Source of the DNA: an uncultured Myxococcales bacterium
GTDB lineage: Bacteria > Myxococcota_A > UBA9042 > DTJE01
DNA length: 59,209 nt
Assembly: GCA_903847405.1 (NCBI GenBank)
Contig: CAINDP010000202.1
Location: forward strand, 1-59,209
Direction: 5' to 3'
Made by a program: the position numbers and the translations under genes
Notes under the pieces: model-generated
Database searches by the model: none
What the model saw: only the letters and a program-made list of their open reading frames with translations
What the model was told of the DNA's origin: nothing
Shown: in pieces, positions 23,084-39,330 of the stretch
How positions within the stretch are numbered: position 1 is the stretch's first letter
How the letters are laid out: each line of letters opens with the position of its first letter

Positions 23084-24733
23084 ATGTTCACGCCTTCCAC
23101 ATGGCTGGCTGGCCCCTGGCGTCGTCGCGTGGCCGCGATGATATCGTTGACTCTTGTGGCCATCGCCGGCTCCGTGCATCTTCCGCAGCCCATCAGCGGC
23201 GATGCGGCGCTTTACCAACTGGGCGCGATCGCCATGTCCCAGGGCGACGTCCTGTACCGCGATTTCTGGGACCTGAAGAAGCCGGGTATCTACCTGTTCC
23301 ACCTCGCTGCTGGAGAACTCTTCGGCCACGACGAGTTCGGCTTGCACCTGTTCGAACTGATCTACCTGCTGGGACTTTCTGCGCTGCTGCTCGTCGCGCT
23401 GCGCGACGTGTTCCGCACGAAGGTGCTGCGCTGGATGGCCCCCCTCGCCACCGTGGGGGCGTACTACGTGGTCAGCAGCGATTTTCACCTGACACAGCCG
23501 GCCATCCTGGTGTCGCTGCCCGTCTTCCTGACCGGGTGGATGGCGATGAAGAGTGGCGAGGGCCTGCTGCGTCGGTGGCTGTGGAGCGCCGGCGCCGGGA
23601 TGGCAGGTGCCTGTGCGCTGCTGTTCAAGGACTCGCTGGTGCCGTTGGTCCTGACGTTGCTGGTCGCCGGCCCATTTCTGGCCGGGGATCGCACCCCGTT
23701 GCGCCGGATCGGGCTGTCGCTGGGCATCCTGGCCGCGAGCCTCGGCTTCGTACTGCTCTGGATGGGGCTGCACGGAGCCGGCGAGGAATTCCTCTGGACC
23801 GTGTTCCAGTATCCTTCCCAGGCCATGGCGCTGCACCAGGTCCGCCCGCTCTACCGCCTCAGGGACTCGCTGACCTGGTTCGCGCAACACTTCTGGCCGT
23901 TCGGGCTGGCGGTCCTGTTGGTCCCCCTTGGGTGGCAGGGCCTGCGCCGCGAGCGCGAGTTCACCATGTGCGCCCTGTGGCTCGGGGTCGGATTCGTGTG
24001 CATCGTCCTGGAGCCCTTCGCCTGGTGGCAGTTCGACATGCTCCTGCTGACCGTGCCGCTGGGGCTCCTGGCCCTGCGGGGCATCGACGGCCTGATCGAA
24101 TTCCTTGCCGGCCACCAGGAGTGGTCCTTCCCCAACCGCCTCGCGTTCGTTGCCGCCGCTGTTTCCCTGCTGGTGCTGCCCGCAGTCGGCGATTGGAGCG
24201 AGAAGGCCGGAACCCTGACGACCTGGTCCTCGTCTACGGGAGGCGCCCTCGGACTCCAGTTGCGGGTCAGCCCACGCTATCGCGAGATCTGGACGTCCAC
24301 CCGCTTCCTGGATGCCGCGGACGCCCTGCCCGGTCCGATCTACGTCTTTGGCGACCCGCTGGTCCTTCGGATCGCGGGACGCGAGTCTGCCGGCCGCGTG
24401 AACGGCTGGGGCTGGGAGATATTCCTGCCGGAGCAGTGGGTTGAGATCGAGCGCGAATTCCGGGCCGCGCCGCCGTCGTACATCTTCATCGACCACGAAT
24501 ACCAGGCGCTGGTCGTCGAGCGAGCACCGAGCCTGTTGCCGTGGTTGGCCGAAACCTACGTGGTCCAATCCGAGGACTCGCTGGGCACCTGGCATCGACG
24601 GGCGACCTCCGAGGATCCCGGGTGTCCTGCCGGCCCGGCGGCCCCGCCCGACGGTCTTGACAGCCCCGCGGGGAGGGCGCTAGACTCCTCCTCGCTTTGT
24701 GTGCCACGCGGGAATAACTCAGTGGTAGAGTGA
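23084..24733 (+). CDS. GT39/ArnT-like polytopic glycosyltransferase, 3' end running into a tRNA gene
   Basis: 549 residues from the ATG at 23084; an ATG at 23138 directly before TM1 is also possible and no Shine-Dalgarno is seen for either. The GT-C signature is visible after the first transmembrane helix: SGDAALYQLGAIAMSQG then VLYRDFWDLKKPGIYLFH, i.e. the acidic first loop and the KPG/KPP motif that in ArnT/PMT enzymes bind the lipid-phosphate sugar donor. About ten transmembrane segments follow and the C-terminal 120 residues are soluble. The last 26 bp of the frame lie inside tRNA-Gly, and the tRNA promoter lies inside the gene. The natural stop may have been lost and replaced by one in the tRNA D-arm. 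Confidence 0.72.
   Translation: MFTPSTWLAGPWRRRVAAMISLTLVAIAGSVHLPQPISGDAALYQLGAIAMSQGDVLYRDFWDLKKPGIYLFHLAAGELFGHDEFGLHLFELIYLLGLSALLLVALRDVFRTKVLRWMAPLATVGAYYVVSSDFHLTQPAILVSLPVFLTGWMAMKSGEGLLRRWLWSAGAGMAGACALLFKDSLVPLVLTLLVAGPFLAGDRTPLRRIGLSLGILAASLGFVLLWMGLHGAGEEFLWTVFQYPSQAMALHQVRPLYRLRDSLTWFAQHFWPFGLAVLLVPLGWQGLRREREFTMCALWLGVGFVCIVLEPFAWWQFDMLLLTVPLGLLALRGIDGLIEFLAGHQEWSFPNRLAFVAAAVSLLVLPAVGDWSEKAGTLTTWSSSTGGALGLQLRVSPRYREIWTSTRFLDAADALPGPIYVFGDPLVLRIAGRESAGRVNGWGWEIFLPEQWVEIEREFRAAPPSYIFIDHEYQALVVERAPSLLPWLAETYVVQSEDSLGTWHRRATSEDPGCPAGPAAPPDGLDSPAGRALDSSSLCVPRGNNSVVE
24657..24686 (+). promoter_or_regulatory. Predicted sigma70 promoter for tRNA-Gly
   Basis: TTGACA at 24657-24662 is spaced 18 bp from TAGACT at 24681-24686. 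The tRNA begins 21 bp after the -10 element, leaving a short leader. It lies within the 3' end of the membrane-protein frame. Confidence 0.65.
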
Positions 24734-24782
24734 CAGCTTCCCAAGCTGTAGGTCGCGGGTTCGACTCCCGTTTCCCGCTCCA
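24708..24782 (+). tRNA. tRNA-Gly (anticodon CCC)
   Basis: The acceptor stem GCGGGAA pairs with TTCCCGC. The anticodon stem ACAGC/GCTGT encloses the loop TTCCCAA, giving anticodon CCC. The T-arm GCGGGTTCGACTCCCG is canonical and the CCA end is encoded (24780-24782). It reads the GGG codon. Its 3' half and the following terminator are partly duplicated about 8.2 kb downstream (32902-33083), so it is a probable integration site. Confidence 0.95.
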
Positions 24783-24785
24783 ACG

Positions 24786-24812
24786 AAAGCCCCGGTGACG
24801 CCGGGGCTTTTT
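24786..24812 (+). terminator. Rho-independent terminator after tRNA-Gly
   Basis: AAAGCCCCGG, a five-base loop TGACG, then CCGGGGCTTTTT. A 7-bp GC stem extended by A-T pairs and a T5 tract, starting 4 bp after the tRNA. Confidence 0.9.
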
Positions 24813-24962
24813 CGTATCCTCGCCCCCCCTCCATCCACGCAGGGTCACACCAGTAGCACCGGATCACACCCAGCCTTCATCTGATCCGGAAAATCCACGG
24901 CATCCAGACGGAATGGACCTGAGGGTCAACACCCTGTCGCCATCTGTCATGTAAAGCAAATC

Positions 24963-25007: not shown

Positions 25008-25595
25008 ATGAGCGGCTTCGCCACACGACTGGAGTCCGCAATGCGTGGCCGGGGCATGGGCGTGATGGAACTGGCCCAGCGCGCCTCGGTCTCCCGCCAG
25101 ACGGTCTACAACCTGCTTCGCCCCGACTTCGACCCCTTGAGCCCGGGCATCCGGAAGGTCGCAGGGGCCCTCGACATGGACCCGGTCGACCTCCTGCCCC
25201 GCGCAAGCGATCCAACCGGAGGCGCGGGAAAAGTGATGCGACTGCTGCAGGCAGCGTCGGGAAGAAAGGATGCCCGGGCGTTCGAACTGCTGCCCGCTGC
25301 ATTGGCCGCCCTGGACGTTGCGGCGGTGGAGACACTGCATCCCACCACGGATGCCGGGATCCGGGTCCTGGGGGCCGCCGCCGCGATGGCGGCCGACCTG
25401 ACGTCCAGCGGCCCCCTCCGTTCGTTGGCCGAGACCCTGCGGCGGCAGGAGGACCCCCACCAGGCGCTCTTCTTCGGCCGGGGTCTGGCGGATCCTGTCC
25501 GGGTCGTCGAGGAGACGCCCGCGCCGCTGCGGCGTCACAAGGTCTTCGGGGCCTTCGACACCGACCTGTTCAGGAGGCACCTTGGCAAGGTCTGA
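25008..25595 (+). CDS. Xre-type HTH regulator, probable antitoxin partner
   Basis: 195 residues. The ATG at 25008 has GGAGGCAGG upstream. Residues 1-65 form a Cro/C1-type helix-turn-helix (MELAQRASVSRQTVYNLL). The C-terminal 130 residues are helical with no recognised family. Its stop overlaps the next gene by 14 bp, an arrangement typical of toxin-antitoxin or phage-defence pairs. The pair sits next to the tRNA integration site, supporting acquisition with a mobile element. The antitoxin role is inferred from arrangement, not from a named family. Confidence 0.68.
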   Translation: MSGFATRLESAMRGRGMGVMELAQRASVSRQTVYNLLRPDFDPLSPGIRKVAGALDMDPVDLLPRASDPTGGAGKVMRLLQAASGRKDARAFELLPAALAALDVAAVETLHPTTDAGIRVLGAAAAMAADLTSSGPLRSLAETLRRQEDPHQALFFGRGLADPVRVVEETPAPLRRHKVFGAFDTDLFRRHLGKV

Positions 25596-26178
25596 TGCGC
25601 CGATGCTGTCCCTGAAGGATCTGGAGGACTTCCTGGACGCGGTGGACCGCGCCTTGGGGCCGCCTATCGATCTGGTCCTGGTGGGCGGAACCGCGGTCCA
25701 ACTGCTGTGCCGGGATCCGGATCGGCGTACGCGGGACATCGACACCCTGTCCACCGACACGATCCCGGTCCTGGTCCAGATCGCGGCGACCCATCTCCAA
25801 CCGATCGATATCAACGATCGTGCCGCCCTCTTCGAGTCGTACCTGCCCGACGATTGGCAGGACCGGGTCCGCCTGGTGTTCGATGGCCCGCGAAAGCGGC
25901 TGCGGGTCGTTGTCCCCTGCCCCGAGGATCTGGCCATCATGAAGGTCTTCCGGATGGGCCCGAAGGACGAGGATGACCTCCTCAAGCTGGCCTCCCTGCC
26001 CGGATTCGACCGTGAGGGTTTCCGGGACCGCTTCCTCCGGCTCCTCCCCGTCGCCATCGGGCCCGAGCGACGCCACGCCCAATTCTTCGCTGAGGCATGG
26101 AACGGGCTCTTCCCGGACGAACTGCCCCTGGACATCGACGACGTCCTGAAGGCCGCGGGTGCGGTTCGATCGGCGTGA
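25582..26178 (+). CDS. DUF6036-like nucleotidyltransferase (possible toxin)
   Basis: 198 residues from a TTG at 25582 with AGGAGG 4 bp upstream; an ATG at 25603 is an alternative. VLVGGTAVQLL at about 33-43 and RRTRDIDTLS at about 49-58 match the GG..A..L / R.T.DID pattern of nucleotidyltransferases related to AbiEii, MNT-type and DUF6036 proteins. EDLAIMKVFRMGPKDEDDL in the C-terminal half matches the conserved Lys and acidic segment of that group. Such enzymes transfer nucleotides to tRNA or protein targets. Coupling to the Xre gene suggests a toxin-antitoxin or defence pair; this is an inference. Confidence 0.68.
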   Translation: MARSDAPMLSLKDLEDFLDAVDRALGPPIDLVLVGGTAVQLLCRDPDRRTRDIDTLSTDTIPVLVQIAATHLQPIDINDRAALFESYLPDDWQDRVRLVFDGPRKRLRVVVPCPEDLAIMKVFRMGPKDEDDLLKLASLPGFDREGFRDRFLRLLPVAIGPERRHAQFFAEAWNGLFPDELPLDIDDVLKAAGAVRSA

Positions 26179-26310
26179 ATCCTTCCGTGCCTATGGGTTG
26201 TCTACGGGAGCGGCGGCAGGACGGCAACGGGCGTGCCCAGGTCGTCGATGCGGGCGGCGCGGATCTCGTCGAAGGCCACGCTGCAAACCCAGTCGCCCAT
26301 GAACACCAAC

Positions 26311-26439
26311 CGGGTACGGTTCAGGTACGGTTTGCCCGTCCAGGCGGGCATTTTCCAGCCCAACGGGCTCTTCCCGGCGCTGCAATATCAGATAGTTGTA
26401 TGATTCCGCAGGCTATGGCCCATATTCCCAGGCTGTAGG
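26311..26439. repeat. 129-bp direct repeat, left copy (flanks cassette A)
   Basis: Matches 32788-32916 with about 8 mismatches in 129 bases and no gaps. It begins with a doubled GGTACGGTT motif, contains a GCCCG/CGGGC hairpin, and ends with TTCCCAGGCTGTAGG, nearly the tRNA-Gly anticodon segment TTCCCAAGCTGTAGG. The 130 bp between the nucleotidyltransferase stop and this repeat show no gene. Confidence 0.9.
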
Positions 26440-26575: not shown

Positions 26576-27613
26576 GTGTCGACGATAGGGGCAGGGGGCC
26601 GTTGGACCCTGGTGGTTTTGGTGCTGCTGGTGCTGACGGCGGCACCGCCCGCCTCAGCCGCGTTCCTGTGCATCGTCCGGGTCGCGCCGGTGCCGGGTCT
26701 CGAGCCGGGAGTCCTGGATTCGGCCCTGGCGCTGGAGCGCCGGAAGTGGGACCTGGCGTTCGACCAGGTGGAGTCGGCGAATCTCGAGGCCTGTCCGGCG
26801 GCCCTGACCGGCGAGCCGAGGACCGTCCTGGTGATCGGACCCGGCGCCACCGGCCGGCTGCTGGATGCATCGGGGACGCCTCGCTTCGTGGATCTCGAGA
26901 CGACCGCACCCGGGGAACGCGCGTCCGAACTGGCCCGCTTCACGCTGGCGCTGATGCCGTCCCCCCGCACCGCGTCGCCGACCGCCCTGGTCCCCGGCCC
27001 GGTCCCCGGGCACTCCCGCATCCCGGCCGAGGCCACCATGCCACCGCCGCGCGCGGCCCTGAGCGGCTATGTCGAGGCCGGCGGGTGGTACGCCTGGCAA
27101 CGCGAGCCCCGCATCCATGCCGCTGGGCTGTCGATCGAGACCGGCGTCGCGGCGTTCGACGAGCGGCTGCTGGCGGGCCTCCGAGTCGGGTACCAGACTC
27201 CCGCGGACATCGCGGGGGGCGGCAGCCGCGTGCAGGCGGTGCCCGTGACGGTCGTGGTCCACGGCGGCTTCCGGTGGACGGCCGCGCTCCTGCGCCTGGT
27301 CCTGGAGGCCGGCCTGGAGTGGCGGCGCATCGAGGTCGAGCCCTCCGCGTGGGCGGGAAGCGTGTCGGATCGGTCCCTGGCCGGGGTCCTGGGCGGCGAG
27401 GTGGAGGCGGTGTTCCCGGTCTCCGAGAACCTGCGGATCGGAGTGGCCGTCACGGCGCGGGGATACGTGGGCGGACCGTCCCTGGCGTGGAACGGCGAGC
27501 AGGTGTACCGCGCCCCGTCCCTCGCGGTCGGGGCGGCGGTGCGGCTTGGCGGGGTCTTCCCGTCGCGACGTGCGGGAGAACCTGCGGGAAGGGGCGATGG
27601 ACGCGGACGTTGA
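26576..27613 (+). CDS. Cassette A protein 1: secreted protein with predicted beta-barrel half
   Basis: 345 residues from a GTG at 26576 with GGGGGGGAG directly upstream. The Sec signal peptide ends PPASA. Residues 30-130 form a small globular domain (FLCIVR, PGLEPG, LERRKWDLAF, VLVIGPG) shared with cassette B protein 1 (LEQRKWGIAF, ALVVGPG). After a Pro-rich linker, residues 160-330 alternate polar and apolar residues in strands (GYVEAGGWYAWQ, AGLRVGYQ, GVAVTARGYVGG), suggesting an outer-membrane barrel. No named family is recognised. Its 3' end overlaps the sigma-factor gene by 17 bp. The place of the gene suggests it is the surface sensor for the following sigma/anti-sigma pair. Confidence 0.7.
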   Translation: MSTIGAGGRWTLVVLVLLVLTAAPPASAAFLCIVRVAPVPGLEPGVLDSALALERRKWDLAFDQVESANLEACPAALTGEPRTVLVIGPGATGRLLDASGTPRFVDLETTAPGERASELARFTLALMPSPRTASPTALVPGPVPGHSRIPAEATMPPPRAALSGYVEAGGWYAWQREPRIHAAGLSIETGVAAFDERLLAGLRVGYQTPADIAGGGSRVQAVPVTVVVHGGFRWTAALLRLVLEAGLEWRRIEVEPSAWAGSVSDRSLAGVLGGEVEAVFPVSENLRIGVAVTARGYVGGPSLAWNGEQVYRAPSLAVGAAVRLGGVFPSRRAGEPAGRGDGRGR

Positions 27614-28190
27614 GGTGATCGCACGCTGCCGACGCGGAGATCCGGCCGCCTGGATCGAGCTGTACCGACGCCATGCGCCCACCGTGGCCCGCTTCCTGCG
27701 TCGGCTGGCCGGCTCGTCGGCCGACGTGGACGACCTCGTCCAGCAGGTCTTCGTCGAACTGGTGGCGTCCCTGGACCGGTTCCGCGGCGACGCGCGGTTC
27801 ACCACCTGGCTGTATGGGATCGCGTCGCACGTCGCGGGCAGCCACCTGCGCGGCGAGTCCCTGTGGCGCCGGCACAAGCAGGAGTATGCGGAGTGGTGCG
27901 CCCCCGACGGCGGCGCGGGTTCGGACCCCGCGGCCGTCGCACAGGCGCGCGCGATGCTGGCGTGCACCGGCCGGGCCGTCGGCGCGCTGCGCTTCGAGCA
28001 TCGCGTCGTGTGGATCCTGCACGAGATGGAAGGGCTGGGGGGCGAGGGGATCGCGGCCGCCCTCGGCATCCCCGCGGCCACCGCCCGAGTGCGGCTGTTC
28101 CGAGCGCGCCGCGAGGTGGTGGATGCGCTCGTACGCGAGGGGTTCGCCGCGGACCTGGGAAGGAGGTTCGAATGCGCTGCGAACGACTGA
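27597..28190 (+). CDS. Cassette A protein 2: ECF RNA polymerase sigma factor
   Basis: 197 residues from the ATG at 27597 (GGAAGGGG upstream). Sigma2 region: HAPTVARFLRRL, then DVDDLVQQVFVEL and RFTTWLYGIA, the ECF hallmarks. Sigma4 region: GEGIAAALGIPAATARVRLFRARREV. There is no sigma3. It directs RNA polymerase to unknown promoters and should be held by the anti-sigma protein encoded next. Translation overlaps both neighbours (17 and 19 bp). The paralogue in cassette B shares the same length and motif order. Confidence 0.9.
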   Translation: MDADVEVIARCRRGDPAAWIELYRRHAPTVARFLRRLAGSSADVDDLVQQVFVELVASLDRFRGDARFTTWLYGIASHVAGSHLRGESLWRRHKQEYAEWCAPDGGAGSDPAAVAQARAMLACTGRAVGALRFEHRVVWILHEMEGLGGEGIAAALGIPAATARVRLFRARREVVDALVREGFAADLGRRFECAAND

Positions 28191-29803
28191 CGGTGTGGCT
28201 CGACGGCTGGGACGCGGAGTCGCCCCTGTCCCCGGAGTTCGTCGCGCACCTCGAGACCTGCGACTCCTGCCGGGGGGCCATGCGGGCCTACCGGGACGCC
28301 CTCTCCCTGGCGACGCGAGCGACCGCGCAGACGGCGATCCCCCTGCCGCCCCGGGCCGGAACGCTGGACGCGCGCCTTCGCAGCCGGTTGCGGCGCCGCG
28401 CCATCCGCCGCTGGGCCCCGGCCGTCCTCCTTCCCGCCGCGGCCCTCCTGGCCGTGGCGCTGCGGGTCGCGTGGCCGGGTGCCCCCGTGACCGACGGAAT
28501 CGGGGTCAACGGCCCCCCGGCGGCTGCCGATCCCGCAAGGTCCGGCGCCACCCTCGCCGTTCGGCCCGGCCAGACGGTCTTGTCGGGGACCGAGGGAGCG
28601 GTCGTGGCCGACCCCCGGACGGGGCGGATCGCCCTGGGGCCCGAGACGCGCCTCACGTTCGACGCCTGGAGTCCGGAGGCCACCGCGCTCCGCCTGGAGA
28701 CGGGCGTCGTGCAGGCCGAGGTCGAGCATCGCGCGCCGGGGGAGAGGTTCGAGGTCCGCACGCCATACGTCGTCGTTCGGGTCACGGGGACCCGCTTCGA
28801 GGTGACGCACCGCCCGGGCCTCGATTCCGTGGTGACGGTCCAGGAAGGCGAGGTGGAGGTCGACCGGCCGTCGGGGGAACTGCTCGCCCGGCTTCCGGCC
28901 GGGGGCACGATCCGGGTCGAGAGGCCGAGCTCCGCCCTCGAACCGCCGGTCCCGGCCGAGTCCCCCGCGACCCGGCAGGCCGAGTCCGGGTCTCGCACGC
29001 CGGAAGACGCGGTCGCGCGGGTCCGCCTCCCGTCGCCGGCGACCCCTCTCGCGACGGCGCGAACAGGTCCCGCACCCCGACCCGGCCCGCCGCATCCTCC
29101 CGGAACCGAGGACCTGCTGGCCCGAGTCCGCGCGCTGGCCGCCGACGGCCGCACGGACGAGGCGCTGGCGCTGCTGTCCCTCCGCGACGACCAACCGGAG
29201 GGCCGGGAGCGGCTGCTGGCCGCCCTGGGTGATGCGCTCTGGGTCGCCGGCCGACCGGAGGAGGCCCGGGCGACATACGAACGGGCCCTCGTGCTCTGGA
29301 GCAAGGCCCCCCCGGAGGGCCTCTTCCTGGACCTCGCGATCCTGGTGGGCCAGCGGATGGACCGGCCCATCGAGGCGGGGTCCGTCTGGCGTCGATACCT
29401 GGAGGCCTGGCCCTCGGGCCGGTACGCCGGCCGCGCGCTGCGCGACCTGGCCGCCATCGAGGACACGGCCGGTCGCCCGGACGCCGCCCGCGACCTCCGC
29501 CGTCGGCTCCTGACGGTTGCCCCCCACTCGCCCGAGGCCGCGTCCGCTTTCGCCCGCCTGGGACGGGACCTGCTGGAGGGGCCCGACCTCGACGCCGCCG
29601 CCCGCTGGTTCGCGGCCCGCCTGGACGACCCCGATCGCCTGGTTGCCGAGGCGGCGCTGGTCGGGCTGATGAGGGTGCGCCTGGCCCAGGACCGCCCGCG
29701 CGAGGTCCGGTCCCTGGCGTCCGAGTATGAGCGCCGGTTCCGGGCCGGGACCCGCCGGGACGAGGTCCGTCGCGTCCTCGATGCAGTCCCCCCGTCCCCG
29801 TGA
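28172..29803 (+). CDS. Cassette A protein 3: zinc-finger/TM/FecR/TPR anti-sigma regulator
   Basis: 543 residues. AGGAGG lies 5 bp before the ATG. Order of parts: N-terminal anti-sigma zinc finger HLETCDSC (HxxxCxxC) at about 26-33, one transmembrane helix near 70-95, then a periplasmic FecR domain at about 125-255 (TEGAVVADPRTGRIALG, VVVRVTGTRFEV, VQEGEVEV). A Pro-rich linker is followed by TPR-like helices from about 320 to the end (DALWVAGRPEEARATYERAL). Classical FecR proteins end after the FecR domain and interact with a TonB receptor; here the output face is replaced by TPRs. It probably binds the sigma factor in the cytoplasm and senses a surface signal. Confidence 0.82.
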   Translation: MRCERLTVWLDGWDAESPLSPEFVAHLETCDSCRGAMRAYRDALSLATRATAQTAIPLPPRAGTLDARLRSRLRRRAIRRWAPAVLLPAAALLAVALRVAWPGAPVTDGIGVNGPPAAADPARSGATLAVRPGQTVLSGTEGAVVADPRTGRIALGPETRLTFDAWSPEATALRLETGVVQAEVEHRAPGERFEVRTPYVVVRVTGTRFEVTHRPGLDSVVTVQEGEVEVDRPSGELLARLPAGGTIRVERPSSALEPPVPAESPATRQAESGSRTPEDAVARVRLPSPATPLATARTGPAPRPGPPHPPGTEDLLARVRALAADGRTDEALALLSLRDDQPEGRERLLAALGDALWVAGRPEEARATYERALVLWSKAPPEGLFLDLAILVGQRMDRPIEAGSVWRRYLEAWPSGRYAGRALRDLAAIEDTAGRPDAARDLRRRLLTVAPHSPEAASAFARLGRDLLEGPDLDAAARWFAARLDDPDRLVAEAALVGLMRVRLAQDRPREVRSLASEYERRFRAGTRRDEVRRVLDAVPPSP

Positions 29804-29869
29804 TCGAGGGGGATGAAACGGAATCGCCCCGGGTCGCTACCTACGGGGCAGGTTAAAACGGAGGCGGCC

Positions 29870-32146
29870 ATGAGCCGTGCATTGCGGACCGGGTTCCGGG
29901 CGTGGATGTGGGTCGGACTCGCGGGGTTCCTCGCGTGCGCCGGCGGGACGAAAGAACTGAATCCCAAGGGGGGGCTTGAGTCGAGCCCCCTCTCCCTGGC
30001 GGACGTCGCGACGCTGGGGGGAGACGCGTTCACGCTGTGCGACGACGGCGAGGCGGACCTGGACTTCGATCGGGCCGGCCGGGTGTACGCGTTCCCGGTG
30101 ATCCTGGAAACCGGGAAGACGGTGGTCGTCGAGACCGCCGGAACCGGTGACCTCGACACGGTCGTGGCGCTGTACGGCCCGTTCCCGCAGGGGAGCGTGG
30201 CGGCACTGATCCCCGTGGTGGCGGACGACGACGGCGGCTCGGGGACGGCCTCGCGCCTCTCCTGGACCGTCAAGGAAGCGGGCTTGTACGTTGTCGTCGC
30301 CACGACCTGGAAGGGCCAGGGGCTCGGGACGGCCCAGCTACAGGTGCGGGTGGACGGGACGCCCGGCTGCCAGGCCGTGCCGTGCGTCGGAAGCCAGTGC
30401 GGGTCTGATGCGGACGCCATCGACGTCCCCTCGGTGGACGGCGTGACGGACAGCGAGGGGACCCACGAGCCCTACCTGTTCCGGCTCGTGGCGCTGGACG
30501 ACCCTCACCAGGTGCAACCGAACGTTGCGGTCCCGCTGCAGGTGCAGCTGATCTCGCCCACCGGGGCCGAGCGGCCGGCCGGCACGGCGATCCGGTTCGA
30601 GATCCTGCCCGTGACCGAACTGGATGGCCACACCGTCGAAGGGACCGGGCACCTCTCGGACTCCCGGGTGGAGCCGGACTCGGATGGGATCGCCCAGGTG
30701 TCGTTCACGGTCCAGGACGGCCGCGAATTTGAGATCCAGGTGACGGCGGAGTCCGGCGAGGGAACTCTCGCGGACCCCATCGTGCTCCACCTGAGGGTCG
30801 GGAACGGGTGCTTCACCGTCCGGTTCCTGCAGGCCGACCCCCCCGCGCCCGCCGCGCTCGGGGACGTGAGGGTGCTGGCGTTCCGCGGCGTCTTGTGCAA
30901 GGACCTCGAGCACGGCGCCCTCCCGGAACCCTACTTCGCGTCGGAGCCCACCAGCGTGTCCGGCGACGGGCTCCGGTTCGACGACCTGCCCCCGAACGCC
31001 ACCTTCGCGGTGGTGGCCGTCGACGCCACCGCCTCGGGATGCCCGGTGCTGAGGGGCTGCACCCTGGCCCTCGCGGCGGATGTCGACGCGAGCGAGTGCA
31101 TGGAAGCGCGCCTGAACATGACGGCGGTGCCCGGGACGGTCACGGGCACGTACGACGCGGTCGATCAGCTCTATGTCCCGCTGCCGCTCGACTGCTCGAC
31201 GCTGACATGCTCCCCGTGGGAGCTGTCCGTCAGCAGTCGCGCCTGCTGCACGCAGAACGAGATCAGGAAGCTCTTCAGCACGCCGGAGACCACGATCACG
31301 GACCGGATCGTCGAGTCCGCACGGCACTGGCCCGAGTCGATCCTGACGGACGACAAGGTTCCGCTGTTCCGGGACGCGGTGAGCCAGGCCGTGACGTCGT
31401 GCCTGGTCGAGAACGCCCCTTCGTGGGTGGCCGCGTTCGGGTCGCCGTCGTTCTCCCCCCTGGACATCGCGGTCACGGTGGAGGCGGATTCCACGATCGA
31501 GATCGTGCGGCAGTCCTCGGACGAGAATCTGCAGATGGTCCGCAAGTGGAACAGCCTGACCCTGTTCCGCGAGTCCGGGTACACCCCCCAGGACGGGACC
31601 GGTCCGATCCCGATGCCCCTCGCCGACATGCAGGACCCGGACGCGCCGATCCTCGGGGAGTCCGTCCTGTCGTTGCGCAACGACTGGGACGGGCTGCACC
31701 TTCCCCAGGTGCCCGCGCAGCCGCTGCTGGAGTGGGGTCGCCTGGCCCGGTACGTCATGGACCGGAGGATCGCTGAGGTGACGGGCGGCGGACCGTGGCT
31801 GTCCACGGCTGCCGATGCGGGCCAGATCTGGATCGACTGCAACTGCCTCTCCGACGCGGTGATGCCGACCTTCTCGGCACAGGGCGGCACCCTGGGGCAG
31901 TTCCTGGGGCCGTGCGAGGAGGCCCGGAAGTCCCTGATCGCGCCCGTACGGGATGCCATGATTTCCATGGACAGGACCGATCCGGCGAGGATCTGGGGGA
32001 CCCTGTACGCCGCCGATGACCAGTGCGACCAGGTCTCGGACAGCATCTCGGGGCGCCTGATCGGGCAGTTCGGCGCACCGGACCAGTCGATGTTCACGGC
32101 GGACTTCCAAGCGGTCCGGACGGACTCGTCAACCCAGGGCGACTGA
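29870..32146 (+). CDS. Cassette A protein 4: large lipoprotein
   Basis: 758 residues from the ATG at 29870 with GGAGG upstream. The signal ends GFLACAGG, a plausible lipobox at LAC. Residues 40-160 resemble a pre-peptidase C-terminal (PPC-like) beta sandwich (LDTVVALYGP, LSWTVKEAGLYVVVATTW). Ig-like strands follow to about 300, then a Cys-rich region with the VTGTYDAVDQLYVPL motif also present in cassette B protein 4 as IVGSYDMTTTLDM. The C-terminal 300 residues are largely helical. No named function is known. As the last cassette gene it could be the regulated product or the surface ligand-binding part. Confidence 0.7.
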   Translation: MSRALRTGFRAWMWVGLAGFLACAGGTKELNPKGGLESSPLSLADVATLGGDAFTLCDDGEADLDFDRAGRVYAFPVILETGKTVVVETAGTGDLDTVVALYGPFPQGSVAALIPVVADDDGGSGTASRLSWTVKEAGLYVVVATTWKGQGLGTAQLQVRVDGTPGCQAVPCVGSQCGSDADAIDVPSVDGVTDSEGTHEPYLFRLVALDDPHQVQPNVAVPLQVQLISPTGAERPAGTAIRFEILPVTELDGHTVEGTGHLSDSRVEPDSDGIAQVSFTVQDGREFEIQVTAESGEGTLADPIVLHLRVGNGCFTVRFLQADPPAPAALGDVRVLAFRGVLCKDLEHGALPEPYFASEPTSVSGDGLRFDDLPPNATFAVVAVDATASGCPVLRGCTLALAADVDASECMEARLNMTAVPGTVTGTYDAVDQLYVPLPLDCSTLTCSPWELSVSSRACCTQNEIRKLFSTPETTITDRIVESARHWPESILTDDKVPLFRDAVSQAVTSCLVENAPSWVAAFGSPSFSPLDIAVTVEADSTIEIVRQSSDENLQMVRKWNSLTLFRESGYTPQDGTGPIPMPLADMQDPDAPILGESVLSLRNDWDGLHLPQVPAQPLLEWGRLARYVMDRRIAEVTGGGPWLSTAADAGQIWIDCNCLSDAVMPTFSAQGGTLGQFLGPCEEARKSLIAPVRDAMISMDRTDPARIWGTLYAADDQCDQVSDSISGRLIGQFGAPDQSMFTADFQAVRTDSSTQGD

Positions 32147-32147
32147 T

Positions 32148-32560
32148 CGCCGGCCGTACTGGACACGATCCCGGCGCCGCCCCGGGCCCACAAATTCCAG
32201 CACCTGCCTGTACGCCAAGTCGAGGTGCTCGCCCACACGGGCGGCAGCCGCAGCCTTCGAGCCTCGAACCTTCTTGCGTACTGCGAGGGCGGTCGGCGTC
32301 CACAAGGGGCCTACGAAGTCCGGCACGTAGTGCTTCGCGACCGCCTGGACCACGACACCGTCGGATTCTGCGCGGGCAGCCGGGTCAAGCGGGTTCCTTC
32401 CCCACTCCCTTCCACACGGCTGATCAGGTTCTCGGACTCCACGTCCGGAACCGGTTGGGTTTCCTTTTCGCGTCCGAGTTCCGGCACCCGGAAGCGCATG
32501 TTCTGGCAATGGGCCACGATGCGGGCGAACTTGACGAGGCTGCTCGACACCTCGTCCATC
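32148..32560 (-). pseudogene. Decayed reverse-strand ORF after cassette A
   Basis: Two reverse-strand stretches read as coherent protein but in different frames. One, about 32400-32560, contains KFARIVAHCQNMRFRVP and VPDVESENLISRVEG. The other, about 32150-32390, contains AKHYVPDFVGPLWTP and a KAAAAARVGEHLD segment. A single frameshift near 32395 would join them. No family is recognised. The region is otherwise intergenic and borders a dispersed repeat. Confidence 0.4.
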
Positions 32561-32654
32561 GGGTCCTCGGCAACGCCCCCTTTTCTTCCGCCCCCGCCTT
32601 TCCTCCTGCGGGCGCAGGGGCTCATCGCGTGTTTCCTTCCTCTGCATGACCCAC

Positions 32655-32785
32655 CTGCTGGAACTGCTGGAGCAGAAGTTGAAGAACCTGACCGCCGATG
32701 CCGCCCAGGAACCTTTGCACGTCGCGATGGACCACGCCGCGTGACCACCCTCGCCTGCCCGTTCAGAAGGCGATCGCGGGTACGG
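32655..32785. repeat. Dispersed repeat, copy 1 (after cassette A)
   Basis: CTGCTGGAACTGCTGGAGCA begins a block also found at 39188 after cassette B. It encodes in the plus direction a short open tail ending PLHV-x-MDHAA-stop. The last 55 bases (GGACCACGCCGC...CCCGTTCAGAAGG...ATCGCGGG) occur a third time at 43769. It probably represents the end of a lost mobile or accessory gene. Confidence 0.7.
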
Positions 32786-32787
32786 AC

Positions 32788-32916
32788 CGGGTACGGTTCA
32801 GGTACGGTTCGCCCGTCCAGGCGGGCTTTTTCCAGCCCAGCAGGCTCTTCCCGGCGCTGCAATATCAGATAGTTGTATGATTCCGCAGACTACGGGCCAT
32901 ATTCCCAAGCTGTAGG
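32788..32916. repeat. 129-bp direct repeat, right copy
   Basis: Partner of 26311-26439. Here the terminal TTCCCAAGCTGTAGG is identical to tRNA-Gly and runs without a break into the duplicated 3' half of the tRNA. Confidence 0.9.
32811..32831 (+). terminator. Weak terminator-like hairpin inside the 129-bp repeat
   Basis: GCCCG, a six-base loop TCCAGG, then CGGGC followed by TTTTT. The left copy has the same stem but only TTTT interrupted by an A. The stem of five pairs is short. Confidence 0.4.
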
Positions 32917-32926
32917 TCGCGGGTTC

Positions 32927-32986
32927 CAGACGCTGCGGGCTTCGCCCTACGCGTTGCAGACGCTGCGGGCTTCGCCCTACGCGTTC
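32927..32986. repeat. Two tandem 30-bp palindromic units
   Basis: The two units are identical except for the final base. Each contains GGGCTTCGCCC (a 4-bp stem with a TTC loop) inside outer CGC/GCG arms, a REP-like small palindrome. Confidence 0.9.
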
Positions 32987-33009
32987 GACTCCCGTTTCCC
33001 GCTCCAACG

Positions 33010-33036
33010 AAAGCCCCGGTGACGCCGGGGCTTTTT
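33010..33036 (+). terminator. Second copy of the tRNA-Gly terminator
   Basis: AAAGCCCCGG-TGACG-CCGGGGCTTTTT, identical to the hairpin at 24786-24812. Confidence 0.85.
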
Positions 33037-33084
33037 CGTATCTGCGTACCCCCTCCATCAACGTCGGGTCACACCATTGGATCA

Positions 33085-33219
33085 AGCGAGATCTGCGCCC
33101 GGGCGGACCTGGACACGAAACACCAGACCCTGGAGCGCGCCGGCACATCGACCATTACCTTCGCGCTGGAGTCCTGGCAGGAGGACGAGAGCCTGATCGA
33201 ATGGCTTCGAGCCCTTTAG
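33085..33219 (+). pseudogene. Remnant resembling a tyrosine-recombinase C-terminus
   Basis: The last 40 codons read ARADLDTKHQTLERA and end SWQEDESLIEWLRAL-stop. This matches the common tail of integrases of the ADLxxKxxALEK...W.PDxSLLxWLxxL type that follows the catalytic tyrosine. No upstream catalytic domain is present. Its position just after the tRNA-derived repeat supports, but does not prove, an integrase origin. Confidence 0.45.
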
Positions 33220-33228
33220 AGTTCGAGG

Positions 33229-33597
33229 CTAATCGATGCATTCAGCAGAAAGGCATCGCTCATCGATGCAGAGGAGGCAGTAGCAGCCCTGGGGACCACT
33301 GGGATCGGGCTTCCGGGTGCAGCCGGAATTGCCGCCGCACTGGGCAACCGAATAGGACGGGTCCAATGCCAGGAAGTCCCTGCAGACATCGGAATGAGCG
33401 CGACAACATGCCCGCGTCGCCTCGTTCGGGAAACCTTCGAGAGCGTCATCCGGTTGAGTATCTGCTCCAGCAAGGTCGTCCTTGGCGCCCAGGCCGGACG
33501 AGCAGGCAACCACGACGGCAAGGAGTGGCCCGGCAAGGATCACGCCGAAGCCCGTTCCTGCCGGCGGCAGAGGGAAAGACCCGTTGAACATTGCCAC
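33229..33597 (-). CDS. Small Cys-rich lipoprotein between the cassettes
   Basis: 122 residues. The start is the GTG at 33597 or the ATG at 33591; no good Shine-Dalgarno is seen. A hydrophobic signal ends AVVVAC, a good lipobox. The mature part has about ten cysteines in motifs RACCRAH, VCRDF, QCGGNSGC, GCYCLLC and a C-terminal CLSAECID. No family is recognised. It is divergent from cassette B protein 1 with a 218-bp gap that shows no other gene. Confidence 0.65.
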   Translation of the reverse strand: MAMFNGSFPLPPAGTGFGVILAGPLLAVVVACSSGLGAKDDLAGADTQPDDALEGFPNEATRACCRAHSDVCRDFLALDPSYSVAQCGGNSGCTRKPDPSGPQGCYCLLCIDERCLSAECID

Positions 33598-33815
33598 ACC
33601 ACCGCCGTTTGACAGTGTTCATCGTACGAAACGGGAGGGGGGGATTCAAGCGCTTCGTCCGCACGAATGAAGCCCTCTCCCGGCGGAACGAGCATCACGC
33701 CGGACTCCGACAGATGCCCCGCCAGGAGCAGTCCGCGATTGCACCCCCCGATGAAACGATCCACGCTGATCCGGCAAATCACGCTGCGAAGAGTTGCGCG
33801 GGGGATTCCGGGACC

Positions 33816-34829
33816 ATGGGGGCCAGTCGTCCAGACATCGCGGCCGTCCCGTTCGTCCTGGCCGTGGTGCTGGCAGCGGCATGCGCCTGGGCAGCCCCGC
33901 CGACCTCGATCCTGTGCGTCGTGCGATCGGGGACTCCCCCGGGCCTTGAGCCGGCGCCCCTGGACGGTGCTCTGTCCCTGGAACAGCGGAAATGGGGGAT
34001 CGCGTTCCGGCGGGTGGACGCCGACTCCCTGGACGCCTGCGCGCCGCCGGACGCCATCGATGCGAACGTGGCCCTGGTCGTGGGCCCGGGGGAATCCGCG
34101 CTGGTCCGGGGCCGGGACGGTACGCGCCGCCCGCTGGACCTGTCTGCCGTGGATGTCCGCTCACGCGCCCAGGACGTGGCTCTGACGGTCATGCGCGAGT
34201 TTCCGCGGACGGGGCGTCCCGCGATGGCATCCCTGGTCGAGTCGAAGCTTCCCGCGTTTCCGCGCCCCCGTCCCGCGCCTGGATCGGTCCTGGCCCGCCC
34301 CTCCTTCGGGGCCTATGTCCAAGTGGGAGGCTGGTACACGTACCAGACGGGGCCGGGGCTGCACGCTGCCGGTCCCGAGGTGGAGGGCGGACTGACCTGG
34401 CTGGAGGAACGCGTCGCCCTGGGCATCCGGCTGGGCTGGCAGCCTTCGAGTACCCTGGCCCAGGCCCCCGTGCCCACCCGCGTGCAGGCCGTGCCCGTGT
34501 CCGTGACCCTCCACGCAGGCGTCCGGCTGGCCTCGGTCCGGGTCCGCGTCGGCCTCGAGATCGGCGCGGAATGGCGGCGGATCACGGCGGGTCCCGCCGG
34601 CCAGGCGCAGCGCACAGGGACCGGGACCGTTGCGCTGCTGGGCGGCGAAGTCGACGTCGTGGTGCCGGTCGGCACGTGGCTGCGGCTGGGGGGCGGAGTG
34701 CTGTTCCGCGGGTACCTGGGCGGGGACAACTGGGACTGGCACGGGCGCACTGCCTATGCCGCTCCCCGCTTCGGGGTGGGTGGAGTCCTGCGGATCGGGC
34801 TGGCCGTGCCCATCGGAAAGGGGGGCTGA
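33816..34829 (+). CDS. Cassette B protein 1: secreted protein with predicted beta-barrel half
   Basis: 337 residues from the ATG at 33816; upstream sequence is G-rich without a clear Shine-Dalgarno. The signal peptide ends CAWAAP. Residues 30-120 carry the conserved SILCVVR, PGLEPAPLDGALSLEQRKWG and ALVVGPG segments shared with cassette A. The barrel-like half repeats the order of cassette A: AYVQVGGWYTYQ, LGIRLGWQ, RVQAVPVSVTLHAG, GAEWRRI, GVLFRGYLGG. The motif RVQAVPV(S/T)V is identical in position. The stop lies 3 bp before the sigma-factor GTG. Function is inferred only from the conserved cassette. Confidence 0.7.
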   Translation: MGASRPDIAAVPFVLAVVLAAACAWAAPPTSILCVVRSGTPPGLEPAPLDGALSLEQRKWGIAFRRVDADSLDACAPPDAIDANVALVVGPGESALVRGRDGTRRPLDLSAVDVRSRAQDVALTVMREFPRTGRPAMASLVESKLPAFPRPRPAPGSVLARPSFGAYVQVGGWYTYQTGPGLHAAGPEVEGGLTWLEERVALGIRLGWQPSSTLAQAPVPTRVQAVPVSVTLHAGVRLASVRVRVGLEIGAEWRRITAGPAGQAQRTGTGTVALLGGEVDVVVPVGTWLRLGGGVLFRGYLGGDNWDWHGRTAYAAPRFGVGGVLRIGLAVPIGKGG

Positions 34830-34832
34830 AGC

Positions 34833-35456
34833 GTGCTCCCGAAGCGTCCCGAAATCCCCCGTCCCGGCCCGGACCCCACCGAAACCCTGGTCGCGCGTTG
34901 CCAGGCGGGCGACGAGCAGGCCTGGCAGGAACTGTATCGCCTGCACGCTCCCACGACCGCGCGGTTCCTGAAGTGCATCCTGGGCCCGGGCCCCGAAATC
35001 GACGACCTCGTCCAGGAGGTCTTCTCGCGCCTTGTCGGATGCCTGGGCCAGTTCCGCCCGGGTCCCCGGTTCACGACCTGGCTGTACGGCATCGCCTCGA
35101 ACGTCGCCCGCGAGCACGCACGCGGCGAGGCGAGGCGGATCCGGCGTTCCCTGGCCTTCCTGGCCTGGTCCTCGGGATCGACAGCCCCGGATCCCATCGA
35201 AGCCATGGAGGCCCGGGAGGACGTGGCCACGATCCTGGCGGCGCTCGAGGGCATGAGCCTCGCGAACCGCACGGTGTGGGTGCTGGGAGAACTGGAGGGC
35301 CTTCCGTCGGACGAGATCGGAAGGGCGCTCCAGACGACGGCGATCACAGTGCGGGTCCGCCTGATGCGGGCCCGGCGGATCGTGGTCAGGGCCCTGCTGG
35401 ACTCCGGTTCGGACCGGCCCCTGGGACCGCCTCGCGACCTTGCGGAGGAGACATGA
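34833..35456 (+). CDS. Cassette B protein 2: ECF RNA polymerase sigma factor
   Basis: 207 residues from a GTG with AAGGGGGG upstream. Sigma2: HAPTTARFLKCI, EIDDLVQEVFSRLV and RFTTWLYGIAS. Sigma4: SDEIGRALQTTAITVRVRLMRARRIV. Its stop overlaps the ATG of the anti-sigma gene (ATGA). It shares the RFTTWLYGIAS block exactly with the cassette A factor but differs in the linker and sigma4 helices, so promoter preference may differ. Confidence 0.9.
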   Translation: MLPKRPEIPRPGPDPTETLVARCQAGDEQAWQELYRLHAPTTARFLKCILGPGPEIDDLVQEVFSRLVGCLGQFRPGPRFTTWLYGIASNVAREHARGEARRIRRSLAFLAWSSGSTAPDPIEAMEAREDVATILAALEGMSLANRTVWVLGELEGLPSDEIGRALQTTAITVRVRLMRARRIVVRALLDSGSDRPLGPPRDLAEET

Positions 35457-37069
35457 ACTGCACGCGACTCCATGACTGGCTGCAGGGATCCCCCGGGTCG
35501 CCGGCCGCGTTCCCGGCCGACCATCTGAGGGACTGCACCGACTGCCAGGAACTGGCGGCGCGACATGAGCGGGCGAAGGTTCTGTTGCGGCAGTTGGCCC
35601 AGGATGAAGCGCCGCCCTGGCCGGGACTGGCCACGTTGCGGACCCGGGCCCGGGCACGCACGCGAGCAAGGCGGCTCGGCTGGATCGCCTTCGGGCTGCC
35701 GATGGCCGCGGGTCTCGCCGTCGCGCTTCGGCTGCTGATGCCGTCGGCGGCCCCCGAGGGGACGGTTCGGATGACCGCGCCCACCGAGGAAACACGGCCG
35801 GAAACGGGCGGTAACCTCGCCGTCGTCGCCGGGACGGTGCTGGACGCGCAGGCGGGCCAGGAGATCCAGACGGGAGATTCGGATGCGACCCTCGCCCGGA
35901 GGGGGACCGGCGTCGTTCGACTGGCGGCCCGTTCGCGGCTGCGCGTCGAGGTGTACTCGGAGGACGCGACCTCGCTGCGACTGGAGGACGGGCTGCTGGA
36001 AGCCCGCGTGGAACACCGCGCCCCCGGTCAATCATTCGAGATTCGCACCGAGTACGCCACGGTCCGGGTCGTCGGGACCCGGTTCACGGTCTCCCACCAC
36101 CCGGGGGCAGACACCGAGGTGCGGGTCGAGGAAGGCGAGGTCGTGGTCGATGCACCGGGAGGCGGACGGTTGGCCCGCATCCCGGCAGGTGGGGCCGCAC
36201 GCTTCGAATCGTCGGATTCCACGGTGCCGATGTCGGCCCAGATGCCGGATCCAGGACTCCCGGGAGACGCCTGCGCGATGGTCGAAGCCCCCAGGAACTC
36301 CGAGCCCTCCCTCCTTCACCGGGCGATTGCGGCCTCCCGACCACTGTCCCAGCCTGCCGTCGCGGACCTCCTGGCGATGGCCCAGGATCTGCTGTCGGCC
36401 GGACACGGCCAGCAGGCTCTGGATCTGCTGGCGACGGCCGCGGACCTTCCGCCCGCCCAGAAGAGCCGGGCCCTGACGATTTCCGGGGACGCGCACCGGG
36501 CGGCCGGAAAGCCCGAGGATGCCCTGCGCGCCTACGAACAGGCCGTGCAGTCCTGGTCGGGGACACCCCCCGAAACGCTGCTGCTCGACCTGTCCTTGGT
36601 GCTGGACGAACTGGGTCGCTCGTCGGAAGCGGCTTCGGTCTGGCAGCGATACCTGGCCGCCTGGCCGAACGGGCGGTTCGTCGGACAGGCCCTGGACGGC
36701 CTGGCGCACGCGGACGAGGCCGCGGGCCGTTTCGACGAGGCGAGGATGCGAATCAACCGGCTGCTGGATCAGGCGCCGTCTGCCCCCGAAGCGATGCCGG
36801 CCTTCGTTCGCATCGGGCGCGTCCTGGTGGATCGCGGGGATCTGGAAGGTGCGGCACGGTGGTTCCAGTCCCGCCTCGACAGCCCCGGCACGGCCCTGGC
36901 CGAGACCGCCCTGGTCGGGCTGATGCGCGTGCGGCTGCAGGAGGGACGCGCGGAAGAAGTCCGCAATCTCGCCGCCGAGCATGGGCGCCGCTTTCCCGAC
37001 GCCCTTCGCAATTCCGAGGTGCGGCGCCTGGTGGAGGCCCTCGCGCCCCCGGTCCAGCCGGCGATGTAA
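35453..37069 (+). CDS. Cassette B protein 3: zinc-finger/TM/FecR/TPR anti-sigma regulator
   Basis: 538 residues with GGAGGAG before the ATG. N-terminal zinc finger HLRDCTDC, a transmembrane helix near 80-97, a FecR domain (TVRVVGTRFTVSHHPG and VRVEEGEVVVDAPGGGRLARIPAGG) and TPR-like repeats from about 310 (GDAHRAAGKPEDALRAYEQAV). The last 60 residues (ALVGLMRVRLQEGRAEEVRNLA) align directly with those of cassette A (ALVGLMRVRLAQDRPREVRSLA), showing common descent. The role is as proposed for the cassette A copy. Confidence 0.82.
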   Translation: MNCTRLHDWLQGSPGSPAAFPADHLRDCTDCQELAARHERAKVLLRQLAQDEAPPWPGLATLRTRARARTRARRLGWIAFGLPMAAGLAVALRLLMPSAAPEGTVRMTAPTEETRPETGGNLAVVAGTVLDAQAGQEIQTGDSDATLARRGTGVVRLAARSRLRVEVYSEDATSLRLEDGLLEARVEHRAPGQSFEIRTEYATVRVVGTRFTVSHHPGADTEVRVEEGEVVVDAPGGGRLARIPAGGAARFESSDSTVPMSAQMPDPGLPGDACAMVEAPRNSEPSLLHRAIAASRPLSQPAVADLLAMAQDLLSAGHGQQALDLLATAADLPPAQKSRALTISGDAHRAAGKPEDALRAYEQAVQSWSGTPPETLLLDLSLVLDELGRSSEAASVWQRYLAAWPNGRFVGQALDGLAHADEAAGRFDEARMRINRLLDQAPSAPEAMPAFVRIGRVLVDRGDLEGAARWFQSRLDSPGTALAETALVGLMRVRLQEGRAEEVRNLAAEHGRRFPDALRNSEVRRLVEALAPPVQPAM

Positions 37070-37136
37070 CGCCGGGGACGCGGGCGGCCAATCATCAGCG
37101 AACATCGAAGGGCCCGGAAACGGGCAGGGAGAGGAC

Positions 37137-39143
37137 ATGAGGCGGACTGTTCTGGCGTTGGTCATTCCGTGTTTCCTGGCGCTTTCGTCCTGTACCGGGG
37201 GTCACCGGGAACTGGATCCCGACACGTCCAAGGCCGAGTTGCCGGGGGACGTGCCCGACTCCGCGACGACCGATCGGCCGGAGGTCGGGGCACCGGACGA
37301 CTCGGCGTGCCCCTGGATCCTCGGCTATGCCGATCCGATCATGGACGACCCCGACAACGGGTACCAGCTTGAACTGGCCTACAACGGCCAGCGGGACATG
37401 CGGGCCCTCGTCACGTCCTGCGGCACCGCCGTCCCGGACGTGGACGTCACGTTCGCGGAGACGGAGGACCCCGACAACACCTGCCAGCTCGACCTGGGGT
37501 CCACCCCGACGGGCGACACGCCGAACGACCTCGGCGTCGCTTCCGTGGTCGTCAGCAGCCCACAGGACACGATGGACGGGGTCTGCAGGTTCAAGGCGTG
37601 CATCTCGGGCACCGATACCTGCATCACATTCGCGGTTCACGTCGAAGCGACGGTGAAGTCGCCACTGAGCGTTGGTTTCGGAGCCTATGAGGGGACCGAC
37701 TCCAACATCAGCCAGGGCAAGGTCCGCCTGTTCAGGAAGGACGCCCCCGAAGCATTCCGATGCAACAGCCTGAAGGCCAACGCCCTTCCCGTCGCAACCG
37801 AGGGAAAGGGCCCGGTCGACCTCCAGACGTCGGTCCAGTTCGTAACCTTGCCGAACCTCGAAACCGACGTGACGCAGTCCTACACCGTCTTCTGCATCGC
37901 CACCCAGCCGGGCGACGCCACCCCCCGGGCCCAGGGTTGCGTGGACGACGTCGCCGTGGAGTTCAACGCCCATCGATACATCGAGTGCCCGCTGGTCGAC
38001 ATCCCCCCGAAGATCGTTGGTTCGTACGACATGACCACGACGCTGGACATGGAGTCAGGGCTGCCGCCGACTGTGGCGTCGGTGGTCAACTTCGTCATCG
38101 ACTTCTCGAACGCGCCGACCGAAGCGATCCTGAAACTGGTGTGCGACCCGAACCTCCGGGCGACCAACGACAGCGCTCTCGGGCCGTTGTGCGAGGCAGC
38201 CTTCATCGATCCAGCCCACCCCGACCTCAGCGGCCTGACGAGCATCGGCCTGATCATGCAGCAGATCATGGACGACAATCTCACGGCCCTGCTGAAACAG
38301 CAGTGTCCGGACAAGTCCAATCCCGACACGTGCTACTCCTACACGAGCACTGGGGTCAACGACGTCATCCGGAGGATATCGCTGCTGTCCACGATGACCT
38401 GCAAGAACGAGCCCGACGCGGACGGCCTGATCGCGCTGGGCGGCTGCAGCGAGAAGTGGCACTCCGTCGTCGTCCGCTGGACGCTCGGCAAGAACTGCGA
38501 CCCGAGCGACCCGACGTGCGGAAATGTCCATCTGTCACTGGCCTCGCTGCCCGGCATGTCCGGTCTGATCACCGCGGACATCGAGGCCAGGCTGGTCGAA
38601 AAGAACACCAGGCTGGCCATCACCAGGCACGCGTTGAACTTGCAGTACGGCGCGTTGCTCGACTTCGTGCTGGAAAAGATCCTGCTGCCCCAGGTGTTCG
38701 GCGACGGCACGGACAGCCTGCCCTCGGTGGATTCGTTCGAGGCGCTGATGTCGGCCTTGATGGCCGGAAGGGCGTGCCTGGTCGCCGGGACCTGTTGCCA
38801 CGACTTCGCTGCCAATCTGGTCGCGCAGTCCGGAGGCGCCGTCGAAGCCACCCTGGTCGAGACGGCCTGCGACTCGCTGATCCCGTCGGGCGGCACCTAC
38901 ATCCGCGAGTTCGTGACCGACCTCGACACCCCGACCGGTGGATTCACGATCGGCACGCCGGTCGCCGACGGCACGAAGTACCTGACCGATCAGCCGTGCC
39001 TGATCACCGACATCGGCAACGACATGCGGTTCGATGCCCTGGGGGGACAGTCCGCCGACATGCAGTGCGCCTGGGATGCCTCGCTGACGCTGGGTGGCTT
39101 CGACTACCGCCCCTCCGCCACCTTCTACGGCAACCGGCAATGA
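37137..39143 (+). CDS. Cassette B protein 4: large lipoprotein
   Basis: 668 residues; GGGAGAGG precedes the ATG. The signal ends ALSSC, a good lipobox. Residues 45-180 hold Ig-like strands with Cys pairs (DNTCQLDLG, GVCRFKACISGTDTC). Residues 290-310 hold the IVGSYDMTTTLDM motif shared with cassette A protein 4. The helical C-terminal half carries many cysteines. The N-terminal PPC-like domain of cassette A protein 4 is absent, so the two lipoproteins share the core but differ at the N-terminus. Function is unknown. Confidence 0.7.
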   Translation: MRRTVLALVIPCFLALSSCTGGHRELDPDTSKAELPGDVPDSATTDRPEVGAPDDSACPWILGYADPIMDDPDNGYQLELAYNGQRDMRALVTSCGTAVPDVDVTFAETEDPDNTCQLDLGSTPTGDTPNDLGVASVVVSSPQDTMDGVCRFKACISGTDTCITFAVHVEATVKSPLSVGFGAYEGTDSNISQGKVRLFRKDAPEAFRCNSLKANALPVATEGKGPVDLQTSVQFVTLPNLETDVTQSYTVFCIATQPGDATPRAQGCVDDVAVEFNAHRYIECPLVDIPPKIVGSYDMTTTLDMESGLPPTVASVVNFVIDFSNAPTEAILKLVCDPNLRATNDSALGPLCEAAFIDPAHPDLSGLTSIGLIMQQIMDDNLTALLKQQCPDKSNPDTCYSYTSTGVNDVIRRISLLSTMTCKNEPDADGLIALGGCSEKWHSVVVRWTLGKNCDPSDPTCGNVHLSLASLPGMSGLITADIEARLVEKNTRLAITRHALNLQYGALLDFVLEKILLPQVFGDGTDSLPSVDSFEALMSALMAGRACLVAGTCCHDFAANLVAQSGGAVEATLVETACDSLIPSGGTYIREFVTDLDTPTGGFTIGTPVADGTKYLTDQPCLITDIGNDMRFDALGGQSADMQCAWDASLTLGGFDYRPSATFYGNRQ

Positions 39144-39187
39144 TGTTGCGGGTCTGGATGGCCGCGAAGACCGGCCAGGCCGACCCC

Positions 39188-39330
39188 CTGCTGGAACTGC
39201 TGGAGCAGAATCTGAAGAACCTGTCCGCCGCCGACGCTCGGGAACCCCTGCACGTCCCCATGGACCACGCCGCCTGACCGGCCTCGCGTGCCCGTTCGGA
39301 CCGCAATCGCGGTACGTCCGGGTACGGTCC
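39188..39330. repeat. Dispersed repeat, copy 2 (after cassette B)
   Basis: Same block as 32655-32785, again just after the cassette lipoprotein and again ending in an MDHAA-stop tail and a GGTACG/GGGTACGG doublet. About 100 bp to the next gene (39430) show nothing else. Confidence 0.7.

Follow-up and report, generated by a model that had tools for sequence, protein, structure and literature searches.

A FecR-linked sigma factor cassette with a predicted small outer-membrane barrel, present as seven diverged paralogues in a Myxococcales genome

FecR-type signalling as described in the literature is tied to TonB-dependent receptors, mostly those for iron carriers. In the Fec, Fpv, Fox and Pup systems, the outer-membrane receptor is composed of an N-terminal periplasmic domain, a flexible linker and a barrel (PMC9249621, PMC11637429), a layout that is found again in the proteins named A below. 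PUMA3 (VreA-VreI-VreR) of Pseudomonas aeruginosa is a cell-surface signalling system whose small receptor departs from the standard type (PMC2729926), and RsiW, a zinc-binding class I anti-sigma factor, carries the motif H-x3-C-x2-C (PMC7406223), as do the proteins named F.

The gene cassettes analyzed here (predicted barrel protein A, ECF sigma factor S, FecR protein F and lipoprotein D; Table 1) share with Fec/Fpv/Fox/Pup the ECF sigma factor and a single-pass anti-sigma protein with a periplasmic FecR domain. They differ in that a predicted 8-stranded, plug-less barrel stands in the place of the TonB transducer, in that the N-terminal domain of A is another alpha/beta domain, with no STN domain among its 50 best fold matches, and in that F has a TPR tail instead of the STN-like C-terminal subdomain as well as an anti-sigma domain of the zinc type. 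VreA of PUMA3 keeps the STN-type signalling domain and has no barrel, whereas A has a predicted barrel and no STN. Compared with RsiW, F adds the periplasmic FecR domain and the TPR tail; we know of no RsiW protein with either. With OmpA, OmpX and NspA, A shares the predicted 8-stranded barrel fold, but it has a separate N-terminal domain before the barrel and its gene goes together with those of a sigma/anti-sigma pair. As two features that define Fec/TonB-transducer systems were looked for and are lacking, we regard the cassette as a variant of these systems, not as a member.

The window (the whole stretch of DNA analyzed, 59,209 nucleotides) is contig C202 of a 5.65-Mb genome assembled in 273 contigs. 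Two clusters, both in the order A-S-F-D, occupy positions 26576-39143. Their junctions measure -17, -19 and +66 bp in cassette 1 (A1/S1, S1/F1, F1/D1; hereafter W1) and +3, -4 and +67 bp in cassette 2 (A2/S2, S2/F2, F2/D2; W2), and the gene models agree with a previous sequence-only reading of the window in the shared gene order and the overlapping or near-abutting junctions. That reading had also reported recognizable identity in all four genes, which held for three of them in BLASTP (A1 vs A2, 38%, E 3e-56; S1 vs S2, 46%, E 3e-49; F1 vs F2, 44%, E 3e-90) but not for the lipoproteins: the BLAST match of D1 and D2 (E = 0.098) is confined to the signal peptide, and against shuffles their score reaches z = 2.2 to 3.4. 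These scores give no support to D1 and D2 as homologues, and the likeness previously seen between GTYD and GSYD is not significant.

Table 1. Coordinates of the two cassettes of the window and of associated features.
Feature	Position	Strand	Description
A1	26576..27613	+	Signal peptide, conserved-Cys alpha/beta domain, linker, predicted 8-stranded outer-membrane barrel; structure model made for paralogue A2
S1	27597..28190	+	ECF sigma factor, regions 2 and 4; 17-bp overlap with A1
F1	28172..29803	+	Zinc anti-sigma domain, one TM helix, FecR domain, TPR tail
D1	29870..32146	+	Large lipoprotein; cassette-specific PPC-like N-terminal domain
A2	33816..34829	+	A1 paralogue; protein modelled
S2	34833..35456	+	ECF sigma factor
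F2	35453..37069	+	Zinc anti-sigma domain, TM helix, FecR domain, TPR tail
D2	37137..39143	+	Large lipoprotein without D1-type N-terminal domain
tRNA-Gly(ccc)-related repeat	window 24708-24782, 24756-24852, 32902-32926, 32980-33076		
Short secreted barrel-like protein	L075 7494-7997, L077 4525-5046, L086 5780-6244		

Seven FecR-domain matches were found in the genome, every one within an A-S-F set: two in the window, a tandem pair on C17 (L008; C17a and C17b) and single sets on C65 (L009), C169 (L010) and C99 (L011). In the identity matrix, A1 and A2 share 37% identity, the A pairs of this genome span 27-39%, and A orthologues in a genome of the same genus (G001) reach 71-74%. The two cassettes of the window are adjacent, yet the identity of A1 and A2 lies within the range of the other pairs, so that their adjacency is not a sign of recent tandem duplication, an origin that the identity matrix rules out. 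On these values, W1 and W2 are about as distant from each other as from the remaining paralogues, and judged by their divergence the cassettes are seven ancient paralogues, not the outcome of a single specificity duplication. The sequence-only reading had spoken of a "duplicated" cassette in "two copies" and had seen in these a duplication of specificity; both statements had to be abandoned, because the genome holds seven deeply diverged cassettes and W1 and W2 are no closer than other paralogues.

Profiles of A matched G000 (7), G001 (2), G006 (1), G007 (1) and G015 (1; a genome of a different family with 54% GC), all in the order A-S-F, and full-length F profiles gave exactly these five genomes again, with as many copies in each (7, 2, 1, 1, 1). 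A wider A profile added six further homologues from five genomes of one genus of another family, all in the order S-F-A. The A homologues detected thus number 18, in 10 genomes of the class, and each of them adjoins S and F (A-S-F in 12, S-F-A in 6, with 4-bp overlaps usual); that other genomes carry the gene set too, on which the sequence-only reading depended, is borne out. Apart from these, the first A profile gave a single weak match among 379 sampled genomes of the phylum, with few candidates scored per genome. A description of the A-S-F gene set was not found in the open-access subset of the literature that was searched. For A, S and F, distances are strongly correlated across clade I (r 0.69-0.86, p 0.0002) and weakly so among the seven paralogues of the genome (r 0.41-0.43, p 0.03-0.11), a covariation to be expected anyway because neighbours are inherited together. 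In three genomes having sigma-FecR pairs without A, a short secreted barrel-like protein (Table 1) is encoded after a DNA-ligase-like gene, convergent with FecR.

The A proteins consist of a signal peptide, an alpha/beta domain of ~100 aa, a disordered linker and a predicted 8-stranded barrel of the OmpA/OmpX type. They matched no Pfam or NCBIfam family, and a profile search of solved structures returned no sequence match to any chain. The AlphaFold2 model of A2, which was built from four sequences only (pLDDT 76, pTM 0.50), comprises a signal helix, the N-domain (31-126), the disordered linker (132-160) and eight long strands (164-333; pLDDT mostly 80-94). Foldseek matched this model to OmpA, NspA, OprF and OmpX (E 3e-8 to 1e-5; E 3.4e-8 for OmpA, and TM 0.71 by target length for OmpX). 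A is thereby predicted to be an OmpA-type barrel with eight antiparallel membrane strands, and the model concurs with the barrel in an exported protein that had been read from the sequence. When modelled alone, the N-domain reached pLDDT 87 and pTM 0.81, with the order beta-alpha-beta-beta-beta-beta-alpha (one short helix left out); its weak fold matches were to anticodon-binding regions of aminoacyl-tRNA synthetases and to the lipoprotein PelC, and the STN domain was absent from the 50 best. Two cysteines are invariant in A across clade I, which suggests a disulphide.

S1 and S2 scored above the cut-offs of PF04542, PF08281 and TIGR02937, with sigma regions 2 and 4 detected in both, and none of the narrow NCBIfam models shown for them reached its cut-off. 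In F, a zinc anti-sigma domain is followed by one membrane helix, a FecR domain and a TPR tail (in F1, HLETCDSC at residue 26, the helix at ~82-100, FecR at 152-229 and TPR at ~310-541). The pattern C-x(~22)-H-x3-C-x2-C stands at the start of all 18 F proteins, the F profile matches the anti-sigma domain of RsiW (E 0.007), the single predicted membrane helix starts at residue 74-116, and PF04773 was above cut-off in the seven F proteins of the genome and in ten others scanned. The ECF sigma factors, the zinc finger and the TPRs beside FecR, all named by the sequence-only reading, were recovered, and the zinc-finger anti-sigma domain extends to every F protein. From what is known of the family, this domain would hold the cognate S inactive. 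No Pfam match to an STN-like C-terminal subdomain was obtained in F, the tail of which is TPR. The TPR tail is present in 18 of 18 F proteins adjoining A (E 7e-5 to 1e-6 in clade II) and in none of ten A-less sigma-FecR pairs of the class (best E 0.011), a linkage that was sampled in two clades and so amounts to few independent events. G017 and G025 hold both types of FecR protein, TPR-tailed beside A and tail-less without A.

A lipoprotein gene accompanies all seven cassettes of the genome, downstream in W1, W2, C17b and C65 and upstream in C17a, C169 and C99, and in two orthologous cassettes of G001 both the lipoprotein and its side are conserved (53% and 71% identity). The lipobox pattern was found in seven of the ten D proteins, including D1 and D2, in accordance with the large lipoprotein previously read as the last gene; in the other three, a Cys occupies the expected position. 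D1 shares a weakly PPC-like N-terminal domain with the lipoproteins of C17a, C65, C169, C99, G001a and G015 (the D protein of C99 is scarcely more than this domain), whereas D2 and the lipoprotein of C17b lack it. This domain occurs in five copies in the whole genome, each at a cassette, and across the class strong matches (>215 bits) were obtained at cassettes only, the next best scoring 80 bits. A, S and F form the core of the unit, to which an exchangeable lipoprotein gene is added upstream or downstream. Immediately before the S-F-A cassette of G045 lies a lipoprotein gene (L083 5944-7248), and clade II cassettes may also have a lipoprotein partner.

Upstream of the cassettes, the -35-like motif SCGGCRAC was found in seven of nine independent cassettes and 0 of 500 shuffles reached seven, for a motif that was chosen post hoc; an unbiased k-mer search did not rise above shuffles and left it unsupported, and the canonical GGAAC/CGTC ECF pattern was not above chance. 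A CCGGCRAC-type element that precedes several cassettes (e.g., L008 7160-7200, L010 110-150, L024 3510-3550) is strongly conserved between orthologue pairs, and is a candidate sigma promoter.

Several repeats surround the cassettes. The 3' part of a tRNA-Gly(ccc) together with its terminator is repeated 8.2 kb off (92% over 97 nt; Table 1), and since these tRNA-derived direct repeats flank cassette 1 and the preceding genes, the segment resembles an insertion at a tRNA site; no integrase was seen. The same segment includes, at 25056-26178, a small HTH-like gene and, after it, one for a DUF6036/AbiEii-like nucleotidyltransferase, which together resemble a toxin-antitoxin pair. A 131-nt repeat (94%; 26309-26439 and 32786-32916) brackets cassette 1, a 129-nt repeat follows D1 and D2 (32651-32779, 39184-39312 and 43766-43824), and copies of both were found in the genome on the contig of the window only. 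Right after the C169 cassette, two small genes (L010 6129-6712) appear from their sequences to be of the MazE/MazF type. Two consecutive beta-helix proteins (46855-51717) lie near several further large lipoprotein genes of the window, which also encodes a Fur-family regulator (22443-22949) and a TonB-dependent receptor (56086-57978) in which no STN domain was detected.

There is about an even chance that the cassettes are cell-surface signalling units, each complete in itself and acting from A through F to S. A would reside in the outer membrane as a small plug-less barrel with its periplasmic alpha/beta N-domain on a flexible linker, and F would cross the inner membrane: in the cytoplasm its zinc domain would keep the ECF sigma factor S inactive, and in the periplasm its FecR domain and TPR tail would extend to the N-domain of A. 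Should A, or the lipoprotein D associated with it, undergo a change, the A-F contact would be altered, upon which F would release S or be degraded (proteolytic release being what family knowledge suggests), and the freed S would transcribe its targets, probably including its own cassette, hence A and D. The A-F contact, the signal, the role of D and the autoregulation are what we infer here. In favour of the route from A through F to S stand the position of all 18 A genes beside S and F, the TPR tail that tracks A, the receptor-like layout of A and the lack of an STN-bearing TonB receptor; against it, the 8-stranded barrel is plug-less in the model, which would offer no evident route for an inward ligand signal. 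From the cell-surface signalling unit of the sequence-only reading, the exported predicted barrel, the recurrence, the zinc domain and the absence of an STN transducer stood, but its four genes have become a three-gene core with a lipoprotein. Slightly below an even chance we place the fuller reading, in which the two contact halves of Fec were replaced jointly: a plug-less 8-stranded barrel with an alpha/beta signalling domain of its own would have taken over from the STN-bearing TonB transducer, and a TPR tail from the STN-like anti-sigma subdomain. The result would be a TonB-independent family of Myxococcota-like bacteria, expanded to seven parallel channels, each with its own surface lipoprotein.

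The same observations bear on other explanations. Neighbours that are co-transcribed often belong to the regulon, both the position and the sequence of D vary, and sigma-FecR pairs without A occur in the same class, so A and D might be outputs only of an ordinary ECF/anti-sigma pair in which F senses a periplasmic signal by its TPR tail; we consider this unlikely, although worth serious thought, as every A found lies with S and F (18/18), the TPR tail goes along with A, and N-domain, linker and barrel are arranged in A as in a signalling receptor. More doubtful still is a monitor of assembly, in which F would bind the A N-domain or unassembled A or D and a failure of lipoprotein or barrel export would free S, in the manner of RpoE or Rcs: the small, plug-less, OmpA-like barrel and the exported lipoprotein of all seven cassettes (five with the cassette-specific domain) would fit it, but the six clade II cassettes have no dedicated lipoprotein domain alongside and no link between the cassettes and BAM, Lol or proteases emerged. 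It is hardly credible that we are dealing with an ordinary iron system of the Fec type whose TonB-dependent transducer was missed by annotation. Such a system would account for the FecR domain of F and for the Fur-family regulator and TonB receptor elsewhere in the window, but no STN-bearing TonB receptor, the classical partner of FecR, was found in the genome, in agreement with the earlier claim that no Fec-type transducer fills this slot: none of the three TonB barrels has an STN match, the sole STN match lies in a 1927-aa frame on C273 without a match to the TonB-receptor barrel, and no cassette contains a TonB receptor.

Our best reading is that the cassettes work like cell-surface signalling systems, as a variant in which the receptor and the anti-sigma contact domain are both replaced, and the model predicts that the N-domain of A binds the TPR tail of F. 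If this is true, the sigma/FecR core can be re-plumbed to a different outer-membrane sensor, and a single genome would run seven such signalling channels.
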